A DNA stretch of 7,825 nt from Oscillospiraceae bacterium (lineage in GTDB: Bacteria; Bacillota; Clostridia; Oscillospirales; Ruminococcaceae). Positions 1-7,825 of the stretch are shown one piece after another. Every line of letters begins with the position of its first letter. Position 1 is the first letter of the stretch. The translations under genes and the position numbers were made by a program. The stretch spans positions 1 through 7,825 of the forward strand of contig JAGBFZ010000018.1 in NCBI GenBank assembly GCA_018110855.1, given 5' to 3'. Below the pieces are notes generated by a model. That model saw nothing but the letters and a program-made list of their open reading frames with translations. It did no database searches and was not told where the DNA came from.

Positions 1-40
1 ATAATTATACCATTTCCTGTATATTTTGTCAAATAAAGCA

Positions 41-75
41 AAAAATATCCGCAGACCATTATAGTCTGCGGATAT
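41..75 (-). terminator. Intrinsic terminator of the tRNA-Leu gene
   Basis: A perfect 12-bp stem (45-56 paired with 64-75) closes a 7-nt loop. Read on the minus strand it is followed at once by a T run (TTTTTGC, complement of 39-45). It lies 8 nt past the CCA end of the minus-strand tRNA, so it most likely ends that transcript. The plus strand has no T run after the stem, so it should act in one direction only. Confidence 0.9.
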
Positions 76-82
76 CAAGCCT

Positions 83-166
83 TGGTGCGAGAGATGGGAC
101 TTGAACCCACACGTCAAAGACACACGCACCTCAAACGTGCCTGTCTGCCTATTCCAGCACTCTCGC
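83..166 (-). tRNA. tRNA-Leu, anticodon GAG, CCA encoded
   Basis: On the minus strand the sequence folds as a class II tRNA. The 7-bp acceptor stem pairs 160-166 with 87-93, followed by discriminator A (86) and a genomically encoded CCA (83-85). The anticodon stem is CACGT/GCGTG and its 7-nt loop TTGAGGT (128-134) places anticodon GAG at 130-132, which reads CUC and CUU leucine codons. A short extra arm (GTC-TTT-GAC) and a T arm with loop TTCAAGT follow. The D-arm segment containing GGAATAGGCAGACA is typical of bacterial tRNA-Leu. Shifting the loop by one or two bases to give UGA or UUG anticodons breaks the stem pairing, so GAG is preferred. The gene stands alone between its own promoter and terminator. 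Confidence 0.95.
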
Positions 167-200
167 ATATTTTTTCTTCCGTTTTTCAACCGACTATGCC

Positions 201-229
201 ATTATATCACATGAGAAATTGTTTGTCAA
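201..229 (-). promoter_or_regulatory. Consensus sigma-A promoter of tRNA-Leu
   Basis: Reading the minus strand, TTGACA (224-229) is followed by a 17-nt spacer and TATAAT (201-206). Both hexamers and the spacer match the housekeeping consensus exactly, as expected for a strongly expressed stable RNA. Transcription should start near 194, about 28 nt before the mature tRNA 5' end, leaving a short 5' leader for RNase P to remove. Confidence 0.9.
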
Positions 230-357
230 GAGTTTTTTTGAAATTTCCCGAAAAATTTTTCTGCTTTTTCCCGCTGCATTGTACATACTTATGATTTTTG
301 CGTTATATTGCTGTACAATCCGCCCTGCGCCCCTTTGGAATTTTGTTATAATCGCTA
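230..357. other. Divergent intergenic region with a paired TGTACA motif
   Basis: No credible gene is seen between the tRNA promoter and the rlmB promoter. ORFs crossing this AT-rich stretch lack ribosome binding sites and resemble nothing. The only structure noticed is an 8-bp inverted repeat, ATTGTACA (278-285) and TGTACAAT (312-319). Each copy contains the self-complementary hexamer TGTACA, and the two are spaced 32 nt apart. A TATAAT preceded by TGT (344-352) resembles an extended -10 element but has no matching -35, so it is not called as a promoter. Confidence 0.4.
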
Positions 358-386
358 TTGAAAAAAGCTGTCGTATGCTGTATAAT
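358..386 (+). promoter_or_regulatory. Sigma-A promoter for rlmB and the downstream gene
   Basis: TTGAAA (358-363), a 17-nt spacer and TATAAT (381-386) form a near-consensus promoter, with a start expected near 393. This gives a 5' leader of about 70 nt before the ribosome binding site and ATG at 465. No internal promoter is obvious in the 48 nt after rlmB, so the same promoter probably also transcribes the long membrane-protein gene. Confidence 0.8.
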
Positions 387-464
387 ATATTAGTATAGGA
401 AAATATGCATAAATGTATAATTTGTCGTACCGTCCCCAAAAAGACGGATAGATTGGAGAAAAAT

Positions 465-1343
465 ATGGCATATCAGCGTTATGATAAAAACAAGGGCAGA
501 AACAGCGGAAAGGACTTCTCTTCAAAGCCCCGCAGAGGCGGCAGACCCGAAAAGTCCTTTGAGGAGCCTCTGAGAAATATTCCCGACGCAGCCGACAGAG
601 GAGAGGCAGAGGGACTTATTATAGGCAGAAACCCCGTTATGGAGGCTCTTAAATCGGGCAAGTCCATCGACACTATCTACGTTAACGGCGAGGCCGGAGG
701 AAGCATCAGCACAATTACCCGTATAGCCCGTGAAAAGGGCATTGTAATAAAGAACGTTAGCGACCAGAAGCTCACTCAGATGTGTGCGGGAGCCTCCCAT
801 CAGGGAATAATCGCTTCGGGAGCCTGCGCAGAATACGTTTCCGTTGAGGATATACTGAATATCTCAAAGAAAAAGGGAACAGCCCCCTTTATCATAATCT
901 GCGATGAGATAGAGGATCCCCACAATCTGGGAGCTATCATCAGAACAGCGGAGGCTGCGGGAGCGGACGGCATCATTATCCCCAAGCGGAGAAGTGCTTC
1001 TCTCAACGCTACCGTTTTCAAGACCTCTGCGGGAGCGGCAAGCTGGCTTCCCGTTGCGAGAGTTGCGAATTTAGGCGCAGCAATTGACGAGCTGAAGAAA
1101 AACGGCGTGTGGATATACGGCACAGACGCTTCGGGCAGCGATTACACAAAGGCTTCCTTCACAGGACCCGCAGCCTTTGTTATCGGCTCGGAGGGCTTCG
1201 GCATGGGAAGGCTCATAAAGGAAAAGTGCGATTTCCTTGTAAAGCTCCCCATGTACGGAAAGATAACCTCTCTGAACGCTTCGGTTGCGGCGGGAATATT
1301 CATGTACGAGGCTGTAAGGCAGAGAGCTTCGGCGGGGGAGTAA
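465..1343 (+). CDS. rlmB: 23S rRNA 2'-O-ribose methyltransferase, RlmB/TrmH group 3 (SPOUT)
   Basis: The product (292 residues) belongs to the SpoU/TrmH family, which transfers a methyl group from S-adenosylmethionine to a ribose 2'-OH; the RlmB branch modifies a guanosine in 23S rRNA. Residues 1-48 are a basic, low-complexity tail rich in R, K and G. Residues about 50-130 form the substrate-binding domain (GRNPVMEAL, SHQGI), and about 141-290 the knotted SPOUT domain. Motif 1 is DPHNLGAIIRT (151-161; conserved N154 and R160), motif 2 FVIGSEGFGM (238-247; E243), and motif 3 SLNASVAAG (269-277; N271). All key residues are present. The start at 465 has GGAG at 455-458. An in-frame ATG at 405 would add 20 residues but sits only about 12 nt after the predicted transcript start and has a weaker site, so 465 is preferred. 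The fold is certain; the exact target (RlmB rather than another TrmH-like enzyme) is inferred from the domain layout. Confidence 0.9.
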   Translation: MAYQRYDKNKGRNSGKDFSSKPRRGGRPEKSFEEPLRNIPDAADRGEAEGLIIGRNPVMEALKSGKSIDTIYVNGEAGGSISTITRIAREKGIVIKNVSDQKLTQMCAGASHQGIIASGACAEYVSVEDILNISKKKGTAPFIIICDEIEDPHNLGAIIRTAEAAGADGIIIPKRRSASLNATVFKTSAGAASWLPVARVANLGAAIDELKKNGVWIYGTDASGSDYTKASFTGPAAFVIGSEGFGMGRLIKEKCDFLVKLPMYGKITSLNASVAAGIFMYEAVRQRASAGE

Positions 1344-1375
1344 CTTTTCCTGCGTAAATCGGCAGAACACTTTGC

Positions 1376-1382
1376 AAGGAGG
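1376..1382 (+). promoter_or_regulatory. Ribosome binding site supporting a TTG start
   Basis: AAGGAGG lies 9 nt before the TTG at 1392. It is a near-perfect anti-Shine-Dalgarno match. The first in-frame ATG of this reading frame encodes residue 66, far downstream of this site, so it fixes the unusual TTG start of the 991-residue protein. Confidence 0.85.
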
Positions 1383-1391
1383 AAATAAAAT

Positions 1392-4367
1392 TTGTCTGAT
1401 AAATTTTCCCTTGACGATATATTGAACGAATATTCAGGCTCAGGTGGCAATAGCTCGGGGCAGTCCCTTGACGATATCCTTAACAGCTATCCTGCTACCA
1501 AGAACTATGAGGATTCGGGGCTTGCGGAGATATTTGACAGCAGAAGCTCTACCACTGATATCGACCTGAGCGGGATAAGCATATCCATGCCGCAGGATTA
1601 TCCATCTCCCGAGGAGATACGCAGAAGCAAGGAGCAGCCTGTCAGCGTTCACGATATCCCCGAGGATCAGCTCACCGAGGAAGAGCGGATAAAAAAGAGC
1701 AAGCAGATAGATTATGAGATAATCAGCGGCGATTACGAAAGAAAATATATGCCCGATGAGCTGAAAACCGAGGCTGAGCTTAAAGCCGAGGGAAAGACCG
1801 ATATGGCTGCTAAGGCTGATGCCGCTTCCGAGGACAAGGCTTCCAAGAAAAAGGTCAAGGTAAAGCCTGCAAAGAAGAAATTCGCTGCGGATTTCGGCGA
1901 GGGTCTGAAAGGAGTTCATTCTTCCTTTGACGATGACGAATTTGACCGCAAATACGGCGGCGCCCCTCTTTTCACATCAGAGGACCGTGACGAGCTTATC
2001 GGCGAAGAGCTGCATGAGATACCCTTTGAAATAAAGCCTCCTTCAGGCTCAAGTTTGTCGGAAAAGCTCGAACGGGAAGCGGAATTTAACGAGAAATACA
2101 GTTCCTCCGCAGGGGTAAAGCATGAGCATAAGGTAAGACCCGAAAGGGTCGTGCAGAAGCAGGAAGCAGCAAGCCCCTTTGATAAATATGCAGCCATTGA
2201 CGATCTTGACAGTATTCTCGGGCAGTATGAGAAAAAGGAGCAGCCTCAGACCTTAAAGCGCTCCGAAACCTCTCCTCTCAAGGGCTTCACCGATATTTTC
2301 AATAAGATAATGGCAAAGGAGGAAGCAGGCGGAGAAGGCTCCGAGCTTTTAGAAGAAAGCAAGAAGCTGAAGCGCTCCGATGTTGCCATCGAGAGAAAGA
2401 AGATATCCGATATCGGTCTTGATCTTTCGGACAAAATGATAAAGGACACTTCTCAGATAAATATAGACAAGACCAATGCGGAGCTTGAAAAGCTCAATGC
2501 TCTCAAGGAGCGCAGAAGCAAGAAGATCAAGGATTTCGTGCTTATGGGCGGCGAGGAGGAGAATACTCCCGAGGAAAACGCCGAGGCTTCGGAAAATACT
2601 GAGATCGACGATTTTGAGAGCCTTGTGGACGCTCCCGATATACAGGAGCATATCACGGGGCAGAAAAACAAGCTGATCTTCAGGCTTGCTATACTGTTCA
2701 TCTGCTTTGCGGCTACTACATATATGGCAGTTGCCAATGATTTCAAGCTGCCCGTTTTAGAGTCGCTGTCAATTATAGATAAGAGAAGCCAGCCGGATGT
2801 ATTTCTGTTCATAAACAGCGTTATCGGCGTGGTTGCAGGCTTTGTTGCGTCCCAGACCATTTCCGGGGGCATATCGAAGCTCCTTTCGGGAAAGGCGGAC
2901 TGCGATTCCCTTTCGGCAATGACACTTGTGTCCTGCCTGCTCACATCGATGATATCACTTGCGGATTCCAATATGGTAAGGGGAAGCTATGTTTACATTT
3001 TCACTCCTGTTGCCATTGGTTCCCTTATATTCAATACTATCGGAAAGCTGCTGATAATCAGCCGTACACAGCGCAGCTTTACCTTCATTTCAGATGATAA
3101 CGACCGCTATGCTCTCTTTGTTGTGGATGACGAGGAAAAGGCTCAGAACTTTACCCGAGGCTCCCTGTCGGATTTTCCTGTGCTTGCGGGAATGCAGAAA
3201 ACTGAGGTCATTACCGATTTCCTCAAAACCTCCTATGCAGGGGACAGCACCGACAGATTCAGCAAGATGGTCTGCCCCATAATTGCGGCGGCAGGACTTG
3301 TTATCGGAATAATCGCTGCTCTTCTCGCAAGAGTTGAGCATGGAACAATGGGTGCGGTATGTGTTGGACTTTCCACATTTTCAGCCTGCGCTTCAATATG
3401 CTCCTGCTTCGGAATGATGCTTGTGGTTAATCTCCCCATGGAAAAGGCTTCCTCAAAGTACAGCTCAAAGCAGGGCGCTATTGTGGGCTATGACAGCATT
3501 GAGGAATTCGGTGATGTAAACAGCATTATGATAGACGCAGCCTCGCTTTTTCCTCCGGGAAGCATTATTCTCAGAAATATCAAGTCCTTCCCCGATTCAA
3601 GCATAGATGAAGCTATTGTTGAAGCGGCAAGCCTTACAAGCCAGTCGGGCAGCGTCCTCAATAATATGTTCTATGATATAATTGTTGGAAAAACGGAAAT
3701 GCTTGACCCTGTGGAGAGCTATATTTACGAGGATTCCATGGGACTTTGCGGCTGGATAAACAACAAGCGTGTGCTTCTCGGAAACAGGGAGCTTATGCAG
3801 AATCACAGCATTGAAGGGCTTCCTTCCATTGCCAAGGAAAACGAGTACACTGACGGAGACAAGATAGCCGTATATCTGTCCATATCGGGACAGCTTTCTG
3901 CCATGTTCATAATCGAGCTGACCGCCTCCTATCAGATAAAGAAGGCTCTCAAGGAGCTGGAAAGGGGCGGCGTGGCGGTAATGCTCCGCTCGGTGGATTC
4001 CATGCTTTCGGTAAGCAGGCTTTCGGAGCTGTTTGAGGTAACTCCTCTTCTTTTCAAGCTTATTCCCTTCAGGCTCCACCCCGATTACGAAGCATCAACG
4101 GAATATTCCGCCAAAAGGTCTGCGACCCTTGTATGCTCGGGAAGATTTGCTTCCTTTGCACAGCTGATCCTTGGCGCTAACCGCCTGAGAGGGACTATCT
4201 CCGCAGGAATTGCGATGCAGGCGGCGGAGATACTTCTGGGAATCCTGCTCACCCTTGCGCTGGTGCTTCTGCACTCCATGGCAGAGCTTACGGTAACGAA
4301 TATCCTGCTTTATAATTTTGTTTTTGTGTGCCTGTATTTTGTATTTCAGGCGTTCAGAAAGGTATAA
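1392..4367 (+). CDS. Large membrane protein: apparent catalytically dead P1B-type ATPase homologue with long hydrophilic N-terminus
   Basis: The product has 991 residues. Residues 1-425 are hydrophilic, charged and probably largely disordered, with a lysine-rich patch (151-163) and a short LDDIL-type motif near residues 6-11 and 25-30. Eight hydrophobic segments follow in a 4+2+2 pattern (about 428-448, 469-490, 507-525, 533-557; 627-648, 652-682; 936-960, 964-986), the topology of P1B metal-transporting ATPases. CSC (670-672) stands where CPC is expected. The stretch SSKQGAIVGYDSIEEFGDVNS just after it (691-711) resembles the segment before the phosphorylation loop, but DKTGT is replaced by DAASL (715-719). 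RVLLGN (793-798) recalls the nucleotide-domain VGN motif. The usual HP is replaced near 753-755, TGDN is replaced by SVDS (867-870), and TGE and GDGxND are not found. Inference: it keeps the fold but cannot run an ATP cycle, so it may be a sensor, scaffold or regulator. It lies 48 nt after rlmB and is probably cotranscribed. Function unknown. Confidence 0.75.
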   Translation: MSDKFSLDDILNEYSGSGGNSSGQSLDDILNSYPATKNYEDSGLAEIFDSRSSTTDIDLSGISISMPQDYPSPEEIRRSKEQPVSVHDIPEDQLTEEERIKKSKQIDYEIISGDYERKYMPDELKTEAELKAEGKTDMAAKADAASEDKASKKKVKVKPAKKKFAADFGEGLKGVHSSFDDDEFDRKYGGAPLFTSEDRDELIGEELHEIPFEIKPPSGSSLSEKLEREAEFNEKYSSSAGVKHEHKVRPERVVQKQEAASPFDKYAAIDDLDSILGQYEKKEQPQTLKRSETSPLKGFTDIFNKIMAKEEAGGEGSELLEESKKLKRSDVAIERKKISDIGLDLSDKMIKDTSQINIDKTNAELEKLNALKERRSKKIKDFVLMGGEEENTPEENAEASENTEIDDFESLVDAPDIQEHITGQKNKLIFRLAILFICFAATTYMAVANDFKLPVLESLSIIDKRSQPDVFLFINSVIGVVAGFVASQTISGGISKLLSGKADCDSLSAMTLVSCLLTSMISLADSNMVRGSYVYIFTPVAIGSLIFNTIGKLLIISRTQRSFTFISDDNDRYALFVVDDEEKAQNFTRGSLSDFPVLAGMQKTEVITDFLKTSYAGDSTDRFSKMVCPIIAAAGLVIGIIAALLARVEHGTMGAVCVGLSTFSACASICSCFGMMLVVNLPMEKASSKYSSKQGAIVGYDSIEEFGDVNSIMIDAASLFPPGSIILRNIKSFPDSSIDEAIVEAASLTSQSGSVLNNMFYDIIVGKTEMLDPVESYIYEDSMGLCGWINNKRVLLGNRELMQNHSIEGLPSIAKENEYTDGDKIAVYLSISGQLSAMFIIELTASYQIKKALKELERGGVAVMLRSVDSMLSVSRLSELFEVTPLLFKLIPFRLHPDYEASTEYSAKRSATLVCSGRFASFAQLILGANRLRGTISAGIAMQAAEILLGILLTLALVLLHSMAELTVTNILLYNFVFVCLYFVFQAFRKV
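1407..1477 (+). repeat. Two copies of a 14-nt coding repeat (LDDIL motif)
   Basis: TCCCTTGACGATAT occurs at 1407-1420 and 1464-1477 in the same reading frame, each encoding SLDDIL (residues 6-11 and 25-30) followed by NEY or NSY. A looser version, IDDLDSILGQY, is encoded around 2196-2228 (residues 269-279). The motif repeats as protein in an otherwise low-complexity region, suggesting a short helical docking peptide rather than a DNA-level element. Confidence 0.6.
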
Positions 4368-4370
4368 TAA

Positions 4371-4410
4371 AAAGATTCCCCGTGTTAATGCAAAACATGG
4401 GGAATTTTTG
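4371..4410 (+). terminator. Intrinsic terminator of the rlmB unit
   Basis: A 12-bp stem with one G-U pair (4375-4386 with 4394-4405) closes a 7-nt loop and runs into TTTTT (4405-4409), only 7 nt after the stop codon at 4365-4367. The A run at 4371-4373 could pair with the T run and help terminate on the opposite strand, but no minus-strand gene approaches it. Confidence 0.9.
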
Positions 4411-4478
4411 TTATAGATTAAAATCAGATTAAAACCCGTTCTAACGGTGACAGATAAATGAAAATTAGGTTAAAGTCA

Positions 4479-4507
4479 TTGACGGGGAAATGGTAATATG
4501 CTACAAT
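4479..4507 (+). promoter_or_regulatory. Extended -10 promoter of the J-domain unit
   Basis: TTGACG (4479-4484), a 17-nt spacer and TACAAT (4502-4507) form a good sigma-A promoter, strengthened by TGC just before the -10 element (4499-4501). Transcription is expected near 4514, about 33 nt before the ATG at 4547. It lies after a strong terminator, so the three following genes appear to be independently transcribed. Confidence 0.85.
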
Positions 4508-4546
4508 AAAAAAGAGAAAAACAACTAACGGAAATGGAGCAGGATT

Positions 4547-5241
4547 ATGAGCGTTGATCCCTATCAGGTGCTGGGAGTACCCTACAATGCGGACGAGGAC
4601 GAGATAAAAAAGAAATACCGATCTCTTGTAAAGCAGTATCACCCCGATCTGCACCCCAACGACCCCGAGGCTGCAAAAAAATGAGCGAGATAAACGCTGC
4701 CTATGAGATGATAAAGTCGGGTGAAGCCTCCGCATATCGGGGCGGTTCATCATATTCTGGCGGACAGACCTCATCGGGCGGATATTCGGGAGCGCAGTCC
4801 TATCAGTACGGTGATATGGACGATTTCCTCAATTCCTTTTTCGGAGCCTTCGGCTTCGGAACAGCAGCATCTCAGATGAACGAAAATGAGGTATATGAAA
4901 AGGTACGCAGATATATTGCCGAGGGAGATCTGGCTTCTGCGGAGTCGCTTCTGAACCGAATGGTTATACGAGGCGGAAGGTGGTATTATTATGCCGCCCA
5001 GCTTTGCAGCATGGCAGGAGAATACCGTGAAGCTGTGCGATACGCCGATGAAGCAAGGAGATCTGACCCATCTGACCCCGAATTTGCGGAGCTTTCCGCA
5101 GATTATCATAAGCGGTATGACGCTGTTATCAGAAGAAGCAGGATAATTCCCTCAATATTGACCGTTGTGACCTATTCACTTGTTGTCATATTTATTCTCA
5201 GAATGGCAGTTTCCCTTTTCGGCTGGCTGTTTTTCATGTAA
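4547..5241 (+). CDS. J-domain (DnaJ-like) TPR-like membrane protein, reading frame interrupted at an A7 run
   Basis: Frame 1 starts at ATG 4547 (GGAG at 4536-4539) and encodes the first 45 residues of a J domain: DPYQVLGV, the basic helix [13 protein letters not shown] and the HPD tripeptide (residues 32-34) that stimulates Hsp70 ATPase activity. It stops at TGA 4682-4684. The rest of the J domain ([13 protein letters not shown], typical helix III) continues in the -1 frame from 4681 to 5241. The joined product would be 231 residues: J domain 3-58, a Gly/Ser/Tyr-rich linker 63-105, two TPR-like helical hairpins about 113-180, and a C-terminal membrane segment about 200-228. It would be an anchored DnaK partner with the J domain on the cytoplasmic side. 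The break lies exactly on A_AAA_AAA (4675-4681). Options are programmed -1 frameshifting, two coupled proteins (the stop and an ATG overlap as ATGA), a frameshift mutation, or a one-base error in the A run. The family call is secure; the way it is expressed is not. Confidence 0.8.
4675..4684 (+). other. A_AAA_AAA heptamer followed by UGA: candidate -1 slippery site with ATGA overlap
   Basis: Seven A residues (4675-4681) are phased as A AAA AAA in the upstream frame, matching the X XXY YYZ slippery pattern, and UGA follows directly. Slipping back one base lets translation continue as ATG AGC GAG in the downstream frame and restores a normal J domain. GAGG (4667-4670) lies 4 nt before the run; it could stimulate slippage or serve the ATG at 4681 as a weak ribosome binding site. 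I see no strong stem-loop at the usual 5-9 nt distance; only a 4-bp stem (4684-4687 with 4695-4698). Confidence 0.6.
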
Positions 5242-5262
5242 CTTTTGAACCGAGGTAATTTT

Positions 5263-5667
5263 ATGGAAAAGCTCAGAAATAAATTTATTGCCTTTATGTA
5301 CGGCAGAAACGGAGCCGACAGTCTTTATAAAGCCTCTGTGGCGGTATATTTTGCAATGGCAGCGGCAAATCTTTTCCTGCGCTCTGCAATTCTCAGCATA
5401 TTGATGTGGGCGCTTTTTATATGGGCAACCTTCCGCTGCTTTTCGAAGAATGTCTATAAGCGCAGCCTTGAAAATCAGGCGTTTCTGAGAATAGAGGAAA
5501 AGGCGGCACGAAAATTTAAAATGACAAAAACAATGCTCACCGACAAGGAGCACTGCTATAAAAAATGTTCTCACTGCAAAGCATATCTCAGGCTCCCGAA
5601 ACGTTCGGGAACCCATACCGCAGTCTGCCCGAAATGCGGTGAGAAGCTGACAGTCAGAATAAGATAA
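5263..5667 (+). CDS. Small membrane protein with C-terminal zinc ribbon
   Basis: The product (134 residues) has two hydrophobic segments (about 22-39 and 42-60) and then a basic, soluble C-terminal part. Two CxxC pairs at C102/C105 and C122/C125, in CSHC and CPKC followed by GEKLTVRIR, form a typical zinc ribbon; C98 is an extra cysteine outside it. With both termini in the cytoplasm, the ribbon would face inward and could bind nucleic acid or protein. The start at 5263 is chosen because GAGG (5252-5255) lies 7 nt upstream; an in-frame TTG at 5245 would add six residues that include this site. The gene begins 21 nt after the J-domain gene, so the two are probably cotranscribed and may act together at the membrane. 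I know of no firm function for this protein type. DNA-level function is unlikely to be inferable from the ribbon alone. Confidence 0.8.
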   Translation: MEKLRNKFIAFMYGRNGADSLYKASVAVYFAMAAANLFLRSAILSILMWALFIWATFRCFSKNVYKRSLENQAFLRIEEKAARKFKMTKTMLTDKEHCYKKCSHCKAYLRLPKRSGTHTAVCPKCGEKLTVRIR

Positions 5668-5671
5668 AGGA
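5666..5671 (+). promoter_or_regulatory. Ribosome binding site for the TTG start of the TauE/SafE gene
   Basis: AAAGGA overlaps the stop codon of the zinc-ribbon gene (5665-5667) and lies 11 nt before TTG 5683. The spacing is a little long but no better site or ATG is near. The next in-frame ATG is residue 15, inside the first conserved membrane segment. The overlap suggests translational coupling between the two genes. Confidence 0.55.
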
Positions 5672-5682
5672 CTGAATATATC

Positions 5683-6462
5683 TTGGAACTCATAAAAACC
5701 ATAATAGTCTGCCTGTTTGCAGGAATGGGAGCAGGGCTTGGTACAGGCTTTGCGGGAATGAGCGCAGCGGCAGTCATCACACCCATGCTTGTGACCTTTC
5801 TGGGGATCCCAACCTATGAAGCAGTGGGGATAGCACTTGCCTCGGACGTGCTTGCCAGCGCAGTCTCGGCATATACCTACGGAAAAAACAAGAATCTTGA
5901 TATAAAAAACGGACTTATCATGATGGCGGCTGTCCTTGCTTTCACAATAGTGGGCAGCTATGTTTCAAGCCTTGTGCCCAATGAGACCATGGGCGGATTT
6001 TCCGTATGCATGACCTTTCTTCTCGGAATAAAATTCATTGTGAAGCCCGTTATGACTACAAAAGAAACAATGCAAAGCGTCTCTGCCAAAAAGCGGGCGG
6101 TGCAGTCTGTCCTCTGCGGCAGCATGATTGGCTTCATATGCGGATTTGTGGGCGCAGGCGGCGGAATGATGATGCTCCTTATCCTTACAAGCGTGCTGGG
6201 CTACGAGCTGAAAACCGCAGTGGGAACCAGCGTTTTCATTATGGCTTTTACGGCATTTACAGGCTCGGCTTCACATATTGTCATCGGCGGAATGCCCGAT
6301 ATGACAGTGCTTTTGCTGTGCGTGTCCTTCACCCTTATATGGGCGAGAATTGCCGCAAAATTTGCTAATAAGGCGTCTCCCGAGATTCTGAACCGTGCAA
6401 CGGGAATAGTGCTTGCTACCCTTGGTCTTGCCATAATGGCTGTAAATTTCTTTGTAAAGTGA
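5683..6462 (+). CDS. TauE/SafE family membrane permease
   Basis: The product (259 residues) is hydrophobic throughout, with about seven or eight membrane segments, the usual size for the TauE/SafE (sulfite exporter, formerly DUF81) family. The family's internal duplication is visible: a glycine-rich segment GAGLGTGFAGMSAAAVITPM at residues 16-35 and its counterpart GFICGFVGAGGGMMMLLIL at 150-168. The second half continues with a small-residue helix (AVGTSVFIMAFTAFTGSASH, 179-198). Characterised members export sulfite, sulfoacetate or other organosulfur anions, but the substrate cannot be read from this sequence. It starts at TTG, 15 nt after the zinc-ribbon gene, and seems to be the last gene of the J-domain unit. 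The link between a J-domain protein and an anion permease is unexplained and may simply reflect shared transcription. Confidence 0.88.
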   Translation: MELIKTIIVCLFAGMGAGLGTGFAGMSAAAVITPMLVTFLGIPTYEAVGIALASDVLASAVSAYTYGKNKNLDIKNGLIMMAAVLAFTIVGSYVSSLVPNETMGGFSVCMTFLLGIKFIVKPVMTTKETMQSVSAKKRAVQSVLCGSMIGFICGFVGAGGGMMMLLILTSVLGYELKTAVGTSVFIMAFTAFTGSASHIVIGGMPDMTVLLLCVSFTLIWARIAAKFANKASPEILNRATGIVLATLGLAIMAVNFFVK

Positions 6463-6470
6463 TATGCTTC

Positions 6471-6508
6471 AAAGTCCATTTTTCCTAAGCAGAGGATAAT
6501 GGACTTTT
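6471..6508 (+). terminator. Probable terminator after the TauE/SafE gene
   Basis: A perfect 10-bp outer stem, AAAGTCCATT (6471-6480) with AATGGACTTT (6498-6507), encloses a smaller TCCT/AGGA stem (6483-6486 with 6493-6496). The T tract after it is short (TTTT then GG), so termination may be partial and some reading into the VWA gene is possible. It lies 8 nt after the stop codon. Confidence 0.7.
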
Positions 6509-6536
6509 GGCAATATTATCCAATTTAAAATAATAT
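6507..6536 (+). promoter_or_regulatory. Possible promoter of the VWA gene
   Basis: TTGGCA (6507-6512) matches the -35 consensus at five of six positions and is followed after 18 nt by TAATAT (6531-6536), four of six. An alternative pair, TTGATT (6589-6594) and CAAAAT (6612-6617) with a 17-nt spacer, lies nearer the gene but is also weak. Neither is convincing alone; the gene may need an activator. Confidence 0.3.
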
Positions 6537-6592
6537 GTTTTGTAAAGTCATACAAACATTGCCCCAAGGTGAAAAATATCCGATTTATTGAT

Positions 6593-6605
6593 TGTTTACT
6601 AAACA
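6593..6605. promoter_or_regulatory. Palindrome TGTTTA-C-TAAACA upstream of the VWA gene
   Basis: A perfect 6-bp inverted repeat around a single C lies 37 nt before the ATG at 6642. GATT at 6590-6593 and AATC at 6607-6610 extend the symmetry imperfectly, with a two-base offset. The compact, odd-centred, AT-rich form is typical of a dimeric repressor operator rather than an RNA hairpin, since there would be only a one-base loop. The cognate regulator is unknown. Confidence 0.35.
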
Positions 6606-6641
6606 GAATCGCAAAATTCATTACAGAAAGGACAATGCATT

Positions 6642-7825
6642 ATGAAAAAGCTCTCCGCAATACTTGCCGCAGCAATGGCAGTCTCCTGTATAGGAGCATT
6701 TCCCGCAGAAGCACGTTCCTATATTGATACAGATGATCTCCCCACACTTATGTCAAGCGAAGAAAACGACCCCGCTGCTGTAAAATTCAAGAAAGCAAAA
6801 ACAAAGCTCACTGCCGAGGAATCGAATTATTATTACGAGGGCAGATATCTCAGCTGGAAGCCCGTTGACAATGCTCTGCTCTATTACGTCTATGCCAAGC
6901 CCACCGGAAACAGGAAATATGAAAAGATCGGCGCAACATATGATACAAGCTATTATGTGACCATGTCCCGGACCACCTCCTACATGGTAAAAGCGGTAAC
7001 ATATACGGAGGATGACGAGCGTATTTTCAGCGCCGCTTCGAATGAAGTAACCATCAAATATAAAAAGCCCGAGCCTGTCTTATACGAAGATGATGAGATA
7101 TGCTATGAGGAGGATGAATGGGTAGAAGCAGGAGAGGGCATTGAATACGAGGAAGCAGCCTATGACTCTGAACCGGCAGAAGCAGCTCCTGCTCCTTCAA
7201 ATAAGACAGATTCGATTTATCTTCCTGTCGATTATAACACCGAGGAATATTCTCACACCGAGGAAAACGGCTTCAAGAACGCATATTCCGACCCCGTTTC
7301 CACCTTCTCCGCAGATGTTGACACTGCCTCCTTTGCAAATATCCGCAGGCTGATAAACGACAGCGATAAGATACCCGAGGACGCTGTCCGCATAGAGGAA
7401 ATGATAAACTATTTTGATTATGAATATCCTTCACCTGCAGAGGGAGAGGTTTTCTCCGTATACCGGGAGCTTACCGATTGTCCGTGGAACAAGGAGGCAA
7501 AGCTTCTGCATATAGGAGTTATGGCGGCTGAGCCTGAGGAGCAGCCTGCTTCAAACCTTGTATTTCTGGTGGATGTAAGCGGTTCTATGAGAGATGAAGA
7601 TAAGCTGCCATTGGTGAAGAAATCCATACTGAAGCTGGCAAAGAATATGGGAGAAGAGGATAAGATATCCATCGTCACATATTCGGGAGAGGAAAGGGTG
7701 CTGCTTGCGGGAGCAAATGCAGACTGTATCAAGGCATTTACCGATATATCCAACTGCATGGAAGCCTATGGCTGCACCAACGGCGAAAGCGGAATAAACG
7801 CTGCCTATGAGATAGCCGAAAAATA
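6642..7825 (+). CDS. Secreted YfbK-like von Willebrand factor A protein with an FN3-like domain (3' end outside window)
   Basis: An open frame runs from ATG 6642 (AAAGGA at 6627-6632, 9 nt upstream) to the window edge, giving 394 residues and no stop. Residues 1-24 look like a signal peptide (KK, a hydrophobic stretch, then AEA before R25); AVSC at 13-16 is a poor lipobox, so lipid attachment is possible but less likely. Residues about 55-140 resemble a fibronectin type III domain (LSWKPVDNALLYYVY, SYMVKAVTY, SNEVTIKY). A very acidic linker (about 141-190) follows. Residues about 211-265 (DPVSTFSADVDTASF, IRIEEMINYF-like) match the N-terminal region of YfbK-type proteins, and the VWA domain begins near 305. 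Its metal-ion-dependent adhesion site is intact: DVSGS (D311, S313, S315) and T379 in CTNG. It should act at the cell surface by metal-dependent protein binding. Its partner is unknown and the C-terminal part cannot be seen. Confidence 0.85.
   Translation, partial: MKKLSAILAAAMAVSCIGAFPAEARSYIDTDDLPTLMSSEENDPAAVKFKKAKTKLTAEESNYYYEGRYLSWKPVDNALLYYVYAKPTGNRKYEKIGATYDTSYYVTMSRTTSYMVKAVTYTEDDERIFSAASNEVTIKYKKPEPVLYEDDEICYEEDEWVEAGEGIEYEEAAYDSEPAEAAPAPSNKTDSIYLPVDYNTEEYSHTEENGFKNAYSDPVSTFSADVDTASFANIRRLINDSDKIPEDAVRIEEMINYFDYEYPSPAEGEVFSVYRELTDCPWNKEAKLLHIGVMAAEPEEQPASNLVFLVDVSGSMRDEDKLPLVKKSILKLAKNMGEEDKISIVTYSGEERVLLAGANADCIKAFTDISNCMEAYGCTNGESGINAAYEIAEK

Follow-up and report, generated by a model that had tools for sequence, protein, structure and literature searches.

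Near-universal descendants of P1B-type ATPases without catalytic motifs in the Oscillospirales, predicted to be membrane pseudoenzymes and encoded behind rlmB

P-type ATPases are textbook pumps that are defined by one phosphorylated aspartate. The P1B-1 copper ATPase CopA is a working pump with the motifs DKTGT, TGE, GDGxND, HP, and CPC. Loss of catalysis does not always entail loss of the fold: in the iRhom pseudoproteases, a catalytic membrane fold has been kept after catalysis was lost and is reused for regulation. Among P-type ATPases, a P4-ATPase domain in guanylyl cyclase beta of Plasmodium is reported to be without most signature residues (PMC6592433). This article is focused on a protein encoded in a stretch of 7,825 nucleotides from an Oscillospiraceae bacterium of the order Oscillospirales (GenBank assembly GCA_018110855.1, contig JAGBFZ010000018.1, positions 1 to 7,825), hereafter the window, and on its relatives. 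The protein, a pseudo-P1B-ATPase of 991 amino acids (aa), is encoded at 1392..4367 on the plus strand in one open reading frame (ORF) and is assigned from this ORF, NCBIfam and PDB matches, and a structure model. An earlier note on the same DNA had placed it at 3450-4364, which corresponds to residues 687-991, i.e., the P/N region and the last two membrane helices. The protein shares a degenerate P-type ATPase domain with the Plasmodium cyclase, although the latter is eukaryotic, of P4 type, and fused to a cyclase, whereas the window family is a free-standing P1B descendant found across a bacterial order. The iRhom proteins differ in having an unrelated fold and a tested function, whereas the function of the present family is one that we infer. 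A literature search, with most subscription journals outside its coverage, returned no report of a bacterial family of this kind.

The window protein is a member of the P-type ATPase superfamily by descent, and its P1B descent is likewise established. Its best sequence match in the PDB is LpCopA (3rfu/4bbj; phmmer E value of 1.9e-11), the NCBIfam model CopA is matched at 5.5e-8, and LpCopA is also the best fold match in a Foldseek search with the predicted structure (4e-19); these low E values indicate a kinship with P1B ATPases beyond chance. A viral fold library yielded four matches at E ≤ 0.001, all of which are viral P-type ATPases. The profile search proposed in the earlier note found NCBIfam CopA and P1B models at approximately 1e-7 to 1e-8, but these matches lie far below their cut-offs. 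No curated Pfam or NCBIfam cut-off was reached by any model for this protein, and in the Pfam scan no match rose above threshold and none was to a model of an ATPase. Among 58 scanned family members, the CopA model was matched by 49 at E ≤ 0.001 and Pfam Hydrolase weakly by 5, and E1-E2_ATPase by none at E ≤ 0.01. The kinship is thus real but readily overlooked in annotation. Homologues at E ≤ 1e-3 number 538; source names were obtained for 13 of the best 120, and all 13 read "hypothetical protein."

The predicted model aligns with LpCopA (3rfu) over residues 1-567 of the core, and its helices fit the 4+2+2 order of eight membrane segments that had been proposed, including the two extra helices before the core. 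A P1B fold is therefore predicted for three parts of the protein (membrane, P, and N), and in this respect the claim of a retained P1B topology stands. The outcome named in the earlier note as refuting its view, namely a prediction lacking an A/P/N-domain fold or membrane segments from an unrelated family, did not occur for these three parts. The topology claim fails for the A domain, of which the loop between the anchors comprises 57 residues vs. 118 in the genome's own P1B pump, so that about half of it is gone. From the N to the C terminus, with all features on the plus strand, an acidic and probably disordered tail (residues 1-424; 1392..2663) is followed by membrane helices A and B with the first core pair, as placed by the model (residues 425-570; 2664..3101), the residual A domain without a TGE loop (residues 571-619; 3102..3248), the P and N regions, and the last two membrane helices, again from the model (residues 919-991; 4146..4364). 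Thus, the likeness to CopA comprises the two extra N-terminal helices, six core helices, and the P and N domains, whereas the window protein has none of the pump motifs, a halved A-domain loop, and a tail of 424 residues. The same genome also encodes a second member of the superfamily, a P1B ATPase of 622 aa (L061), with all motifs intact.

Loss of the catalytic sites was followed in a 54-row table, compiled after removal of six duplicates among the loci and of the shorter part of each of two split copies (L027 and L043), and in non-redundant sets of 37 and 36 rows, from which members at least 60% identical to one already kept had been removed; counts out of 18 refer to close relatives and counts out of 37 to the order-wide non-redundant rows. 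DKTGT occurs in none of the 54 family proteins and is replaced by DAASL in the window protein (residues 715-719; 3534..3548). Conservation of DAASL among homologues, raised as a check in the earlier note, is not borne out: Asp 715 and the alanine after it are kept in 18/18 close relatives, of which 15 have glutamine at the fourth position, whereas order-wide the aspartate is found in 12/37 and the lysine (position 716) and the glycine of DKTGT in 0/37. TGDN reads SVDS (residues 867-870; 3990..4001), where D869, the aspartate of TGD, is kept in 36/37 and the rest of TGD is lost. The HP of the nucleotide domain is replaced by S-V in the alignment with LpCopA and by V-L in that with the genome's own P1B pump, and GDGxND is absent from the window protein and the family. 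No TGE is found in the window protein, and all 54 rows have a gap where TGE would stand in the A domain, the tripeptide occurring elsewhere in 10 family proteins. The motif losses listed in the earlier note are thereby confirmed. With GDGxND and both the phosphorylation and TGE loops lost, the sequences make a pump cycle very unlikely, and the family presumably transports no ions.

The family is near-universal in one order. Profile A2 matches at E ≤ 1e-40 in 239 of 247 sampled genomes of the order, and named records with a member include Ruminococcus bicirculans 80/3; the collection scan was conducted with alignment A1, A3 being too divergent. In a sample of the class, the 12 order genomes listed score at least 345 bits over nearly the whole core, whereas the best of the 231 others reaches 117 bits over part of it (names are not given for 14 genomes that lack a match). 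In a sample of the phylum, six matches at E ≤ 1e-36 all lie in the order, and 342 genomes gave none (322 not listed by name). In these searches, up to four candidate places were scored in each genome, and up to two in the phylum sample. The 21 hits fetched from outside the order are motif-complete P1B pumps, in which DKTGT, TGE, GDGxND, and CPC are seen. Within the order, the 31 weakest or missing cases comprise 24 with a DKTGT-less member (the exact string being absent from the best-scoring frame), 5 with an active pump only, and 2 with nothing; one genome without a strict match (G394) has a weaker, DKTGT-less one. The genomes with active P1B pumps only are G336, G280, G253, G454, and G434, and those with nothing found are G301 and G313; in these seven, the gene may have been lost naturally or may fall into a gap of the assembly.

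In a tree of 37 family, 22 P1B, and 3 P2 rows, the family forms one clade (100/100), and the genome's own pump lies outside it in the P1B group; long branches leave the internal order of the clade unsure. The family is under purifying selection: the ratio of nonsynonymous to synonymous substitution rates (dN/dS) is 0.041 between the window gene and its relative L053 (dS 0.78), with 0.023 in the P+N region of this pair, and 0.047 between L003 and L004 (dS 0.40). These values, along with the genome counts, the single clade, and a frame intact over 991 codons, agree with the proposal that the gene is maintained as one for a pseudoenzyme and is not decaying. With catalytic residues lost, a fold kept in the structure prediction, and purifying selection, the family can be regarded as one of predicted pseudoenzymes. 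A free-standing, motif-less clade of such breadth, including Ruminococcus, suggests a second job for the P-type ATPase fold, and a role found in one cultured species would hold for the group owing to its near-universal occurrence. Separately, two fetched copies, L027 (4065-6461) and L043 (5221-7448), are split by stops into two frames with rlmB just upstream of the first part, either by decay or by assembly error; the other fetched copies are long open frames.

Among the long regions of the family core, the N-domain (residues 726-845; 3567..3926) is the best conserved. Its mean identity among the 37 non-redundant members is 0.284, compared with 0.278 for the short P stretch that precedes it and 0.18-0.20 for the rest, whereas the order is reversed in 22 active P1B pumps, with 0.392 in the N-domain and 0.50-0.58 in all other measured regions; the two sets differ in depth, and the ranking of regions within each is comparable rather than the values. 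An N-domain signature, E-D-x2-G-x3-W-x4-R-x3-G (residues 780-797; 3729..3782), contains G784 (36/37) and G797 (37/37) along with W788 and R793 (each 20/37); in the first core membrane region, G493 is kept in 34/37. In our mapping via PDB-search alignments, G784 and G797 correspond to G1101 and G1149 of ATP7B, and N798 and E800 to N1150 and E1152. Nuclear magnetic resonance data cited in PMC3203118 place G1101 and G1149 near ATP, and in that article mutation to alanine changes ATP affinity slightly at N1150 and clearly at E1152; in a table of the same article, H1069Q, a change at the position that corresponds to the lost HP, leaves the ATP affinity of the N-domain nearly unchanged. N798, R799, and E800 are kept in 20, 25, and 20 of 25 close relatives, respectively. 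Nucleotide binding by the N-domain is thus possible in this genus and less sure order-wide, because the pocket residues vary there.

The tail contains 97 acidic and 63 basic residues, no cysteine, and no Pfam match at E ≤ 0.01. A short motif, S-L-D-D-I-L-x-E-Y, lies at its start (residues 6-14; 1407..1433), and similar copies are found at residues 25-33 (1464..1490; seen by eye and not matched by the regular expression) and 271-279 (2202..2228). A motif of approximately the form S-[LIV]-D-D-I-L-x-E-[aromatic or aliphatic] is found within the first 80 residues in 18 of the 36 non-redundant members; shuffles gave a mean of 0.04 and a maximum of 1, and the reversed pattern matched 5/36. The motif may be a partner-binding peptide. 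Searches of the genome itself with two degenerate DNA patterns of the motif hit 3 and 9 places, the pseudo-ATPase gene itself among them (0 and 4 for the backwards pattern). A second protein sharing the motif was rejected: the other places examined were a solute-binding-protein-like ORF, enzyme-like ORFs in which the site is distant from the N terminus, or short frames, the ORFs being judged by eye from their frames and the third place of the 3-place pattern being left out. No partner emerged from these pattern searches; one enzyme-like ORF (L104) has a site of loose similarity close to its N terminus. In one subgroup, f10 (G045, G338, G306, G271, G282, G317, and G328), the open frames span approximately 541-554 codons, and the long tail is apparently absent.

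The gene upstream of the pseudo-ATPase gene in the window resembles rlmB, for an rRNA 2′-O-ribose methyltransferase of the SpoU/TrmH family (465..1343, plus strand). Its ORF, open from 405, matches Pfam SpoU_methylase (6.6e-45) and SpoU_sub_bind (1.7e-16), and its start is taken as the ATG at 465, preceded by GGAGA as read by eye. The pseudo-ATPase ORF has a TTG start, with AAGGAGG at 1376-1382. A sigma-70-like site at 358-386 (11/12 matches; the scan of the region gave eight such sites vs. 4.9 by chance) and a strong terminator-like hairpin at 4371..4409 of the plus strand (-21.1 kcal/mol, z -5.8), which was spotted by eye and not listed by a simple scan, bracket the pair, and a two-gene unit is therefore predicted from the sequence, with rlmB as its first gene; the two genes would be co-expressed from a shared promoter. 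In tblastn searches, 46 of 54 loci have rlmB as the immediate upstream neighbor on the same strand, including several in which antisense ORFs of cluster c4 had first masked it. Four of the remaining eight (L006, L013, L016, and L059) have less than 400 bp upstream. In L023, rlmB is found behind an intervening ORF of 894 aa, of which the C terminus matches SpoU methylase, so that it was rejected as a duplicate of the family gene; in L027, the frame in between is the leading part of the family gene, which is split there. Two loci have no rlmB: in L026 (4020-5573), the pseudo-ATPase gene follows an FtsW/RodA gene, and in L049, a gene for an Obg GTPase takes the upstream place. Among the named records, 75/80 have rlmB upstream, as do 74/74 where at least 300 bp of upstream sequence are present. 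The linkage suggests a housekeeping role expressed together with ribosome maturation. The neighbors may lean toward ribosome and translation genes, as judged from few loci with Pfam annotation of the upstream and downstream genes. A member of one further gene cluster lies near the pseudo-ATPase gene in nine loci (L031, L033, L037, L051, L052, L058, and others) and directly downstream in seven of them; the one member tested is EF-G-like.

We favor, with a probability of approximately 0.5, the reading that these P1B-ATPase descendants act as a membrane-anchored receptor or scaffold rather than a pump, because the N-domain is retained and is the most constrained long region. A nucleotide or some other ligand would be bound and read by the N-domain, and the tail would be presented to a cytosolic partner, which it would recruit. 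Several observations weigh against this reading. The tail motif is missing in half of the 36 members while its reversed control finds matches, and in one relative (L044) the tail is nearly absent, at 16 residues. Order-wide, N798 is asparagine in 16/37 and E800 glutamate in 13/37, the first glycine of GxG is kept in 16/37 and lost in the window protein, and the two near-invariant glycines may serve the fold alone. The linkage to rlmB may be a matter of position and not of a function in common. Eight of the 247 order genomes lack a match at the strict cut-off, and the absence outside the order is only as good as first-look searches in which few candidate places were scored in each genome. For selection, the evidence comes mainly from the two closest pairs, as dS exceeds 1 and nears saturation in many of the others. 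A more specific version, in which the order converted an ancestral copper pump into a near-universal membrane receptor that reads a nucleotide signal with its dead P1B nucleotide domain and ties ribosome maturation to the membrane state via the tail, appears doubtful; the tie to ribosome maturation would draw on rlmB and, in some relatives, on the EF-G-like or Obg neighbors.

A purely structural scaffold, in which the fold is a membrane platform and the N-domain holds a partner protein without a small ligand, is a tentative alternative that we consider somewhat unlikely. It would account for the missing catalytic and metal sites in a confidently modeled fold, for up to three copies of the tail motif, and for an N-domain constrained order-wide although its ATP-contact side chains vary, but a mere platform need not keep G784 and G797 at the old nucleotide pocket, nor N798-R799-E800 in most close relatives. 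The earlier note had proposed a metal sensor or scaffold; the scaffold is retained within the receptor or scaffold reading, and the sensor is not. In a sensor, copper or a similar metal would be bound by the C-S-C found at the CPC position of active pumps (residues 670-672; 3399..3407) and reported to the cytosol. The first cysteine, Cys 670, is indeed kept in 18/18 close relatives, but order-wide in 11/37, and the second in 9/18 and 5/37, respectively, with proline at that position in 27/37; the tail of the window protein is free of cysteine and of any Pfam domain that could be an N-terminal metal-binding domain, which is not a universal P1B trait. The sensor was rejected as the leading explanation on these grounds and is improbable. 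Slightly less probable still is an unorthodox transporter with other catalytic residues or one that moves its substrate without ATP: helices are predicted for all eight membrane segments, and Asp 715 in close relatives and D869 order-wide are kept, but the order-wide scarcity of Asp 715, the missing lysine, TGE, and GDGxND, and the halved A-domain loop argue against it, and the membrane parts are no better conserved than the remainder (0.19-0.20). Decay, or a passenger held by its place behind rlmB, would fit the faster divergence than that of rlmB (mean identity of 0.241 vs. 0.499 in 820 pairs) and the two stop-split copies, but the closest pairs give a dN/dS of 0.04-0.05, the remaining fetched copies are long open frames, and 239 of 247 genomes have the gene, so that this reading is highly improbable.

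The remainder of the window contains a tRNA-Leu gene (83-166, minus strand) and, 3′ of the predicted unit, a J-domain/TPR gene (4547-5241) with its own promoter-like site at 4479-4507. The latter is split: the J-domain frame from 4547 stops at 4682-4684, the remainder lies in another frame, and the change of frame sits at an A run (4675-4681). The counterpart in L053 is one frame of 237 aa with DnaJ and TPR matches, and the split may be either an assembly error or a real frameshift. A small ORF (5245-5664) encodes hydrophobic stretches with weak C-terminal zinc-ribbon matches below the cut-off, and the window ends with a gene of the TauE/SafE family and the beginning of one for a VWA protein.
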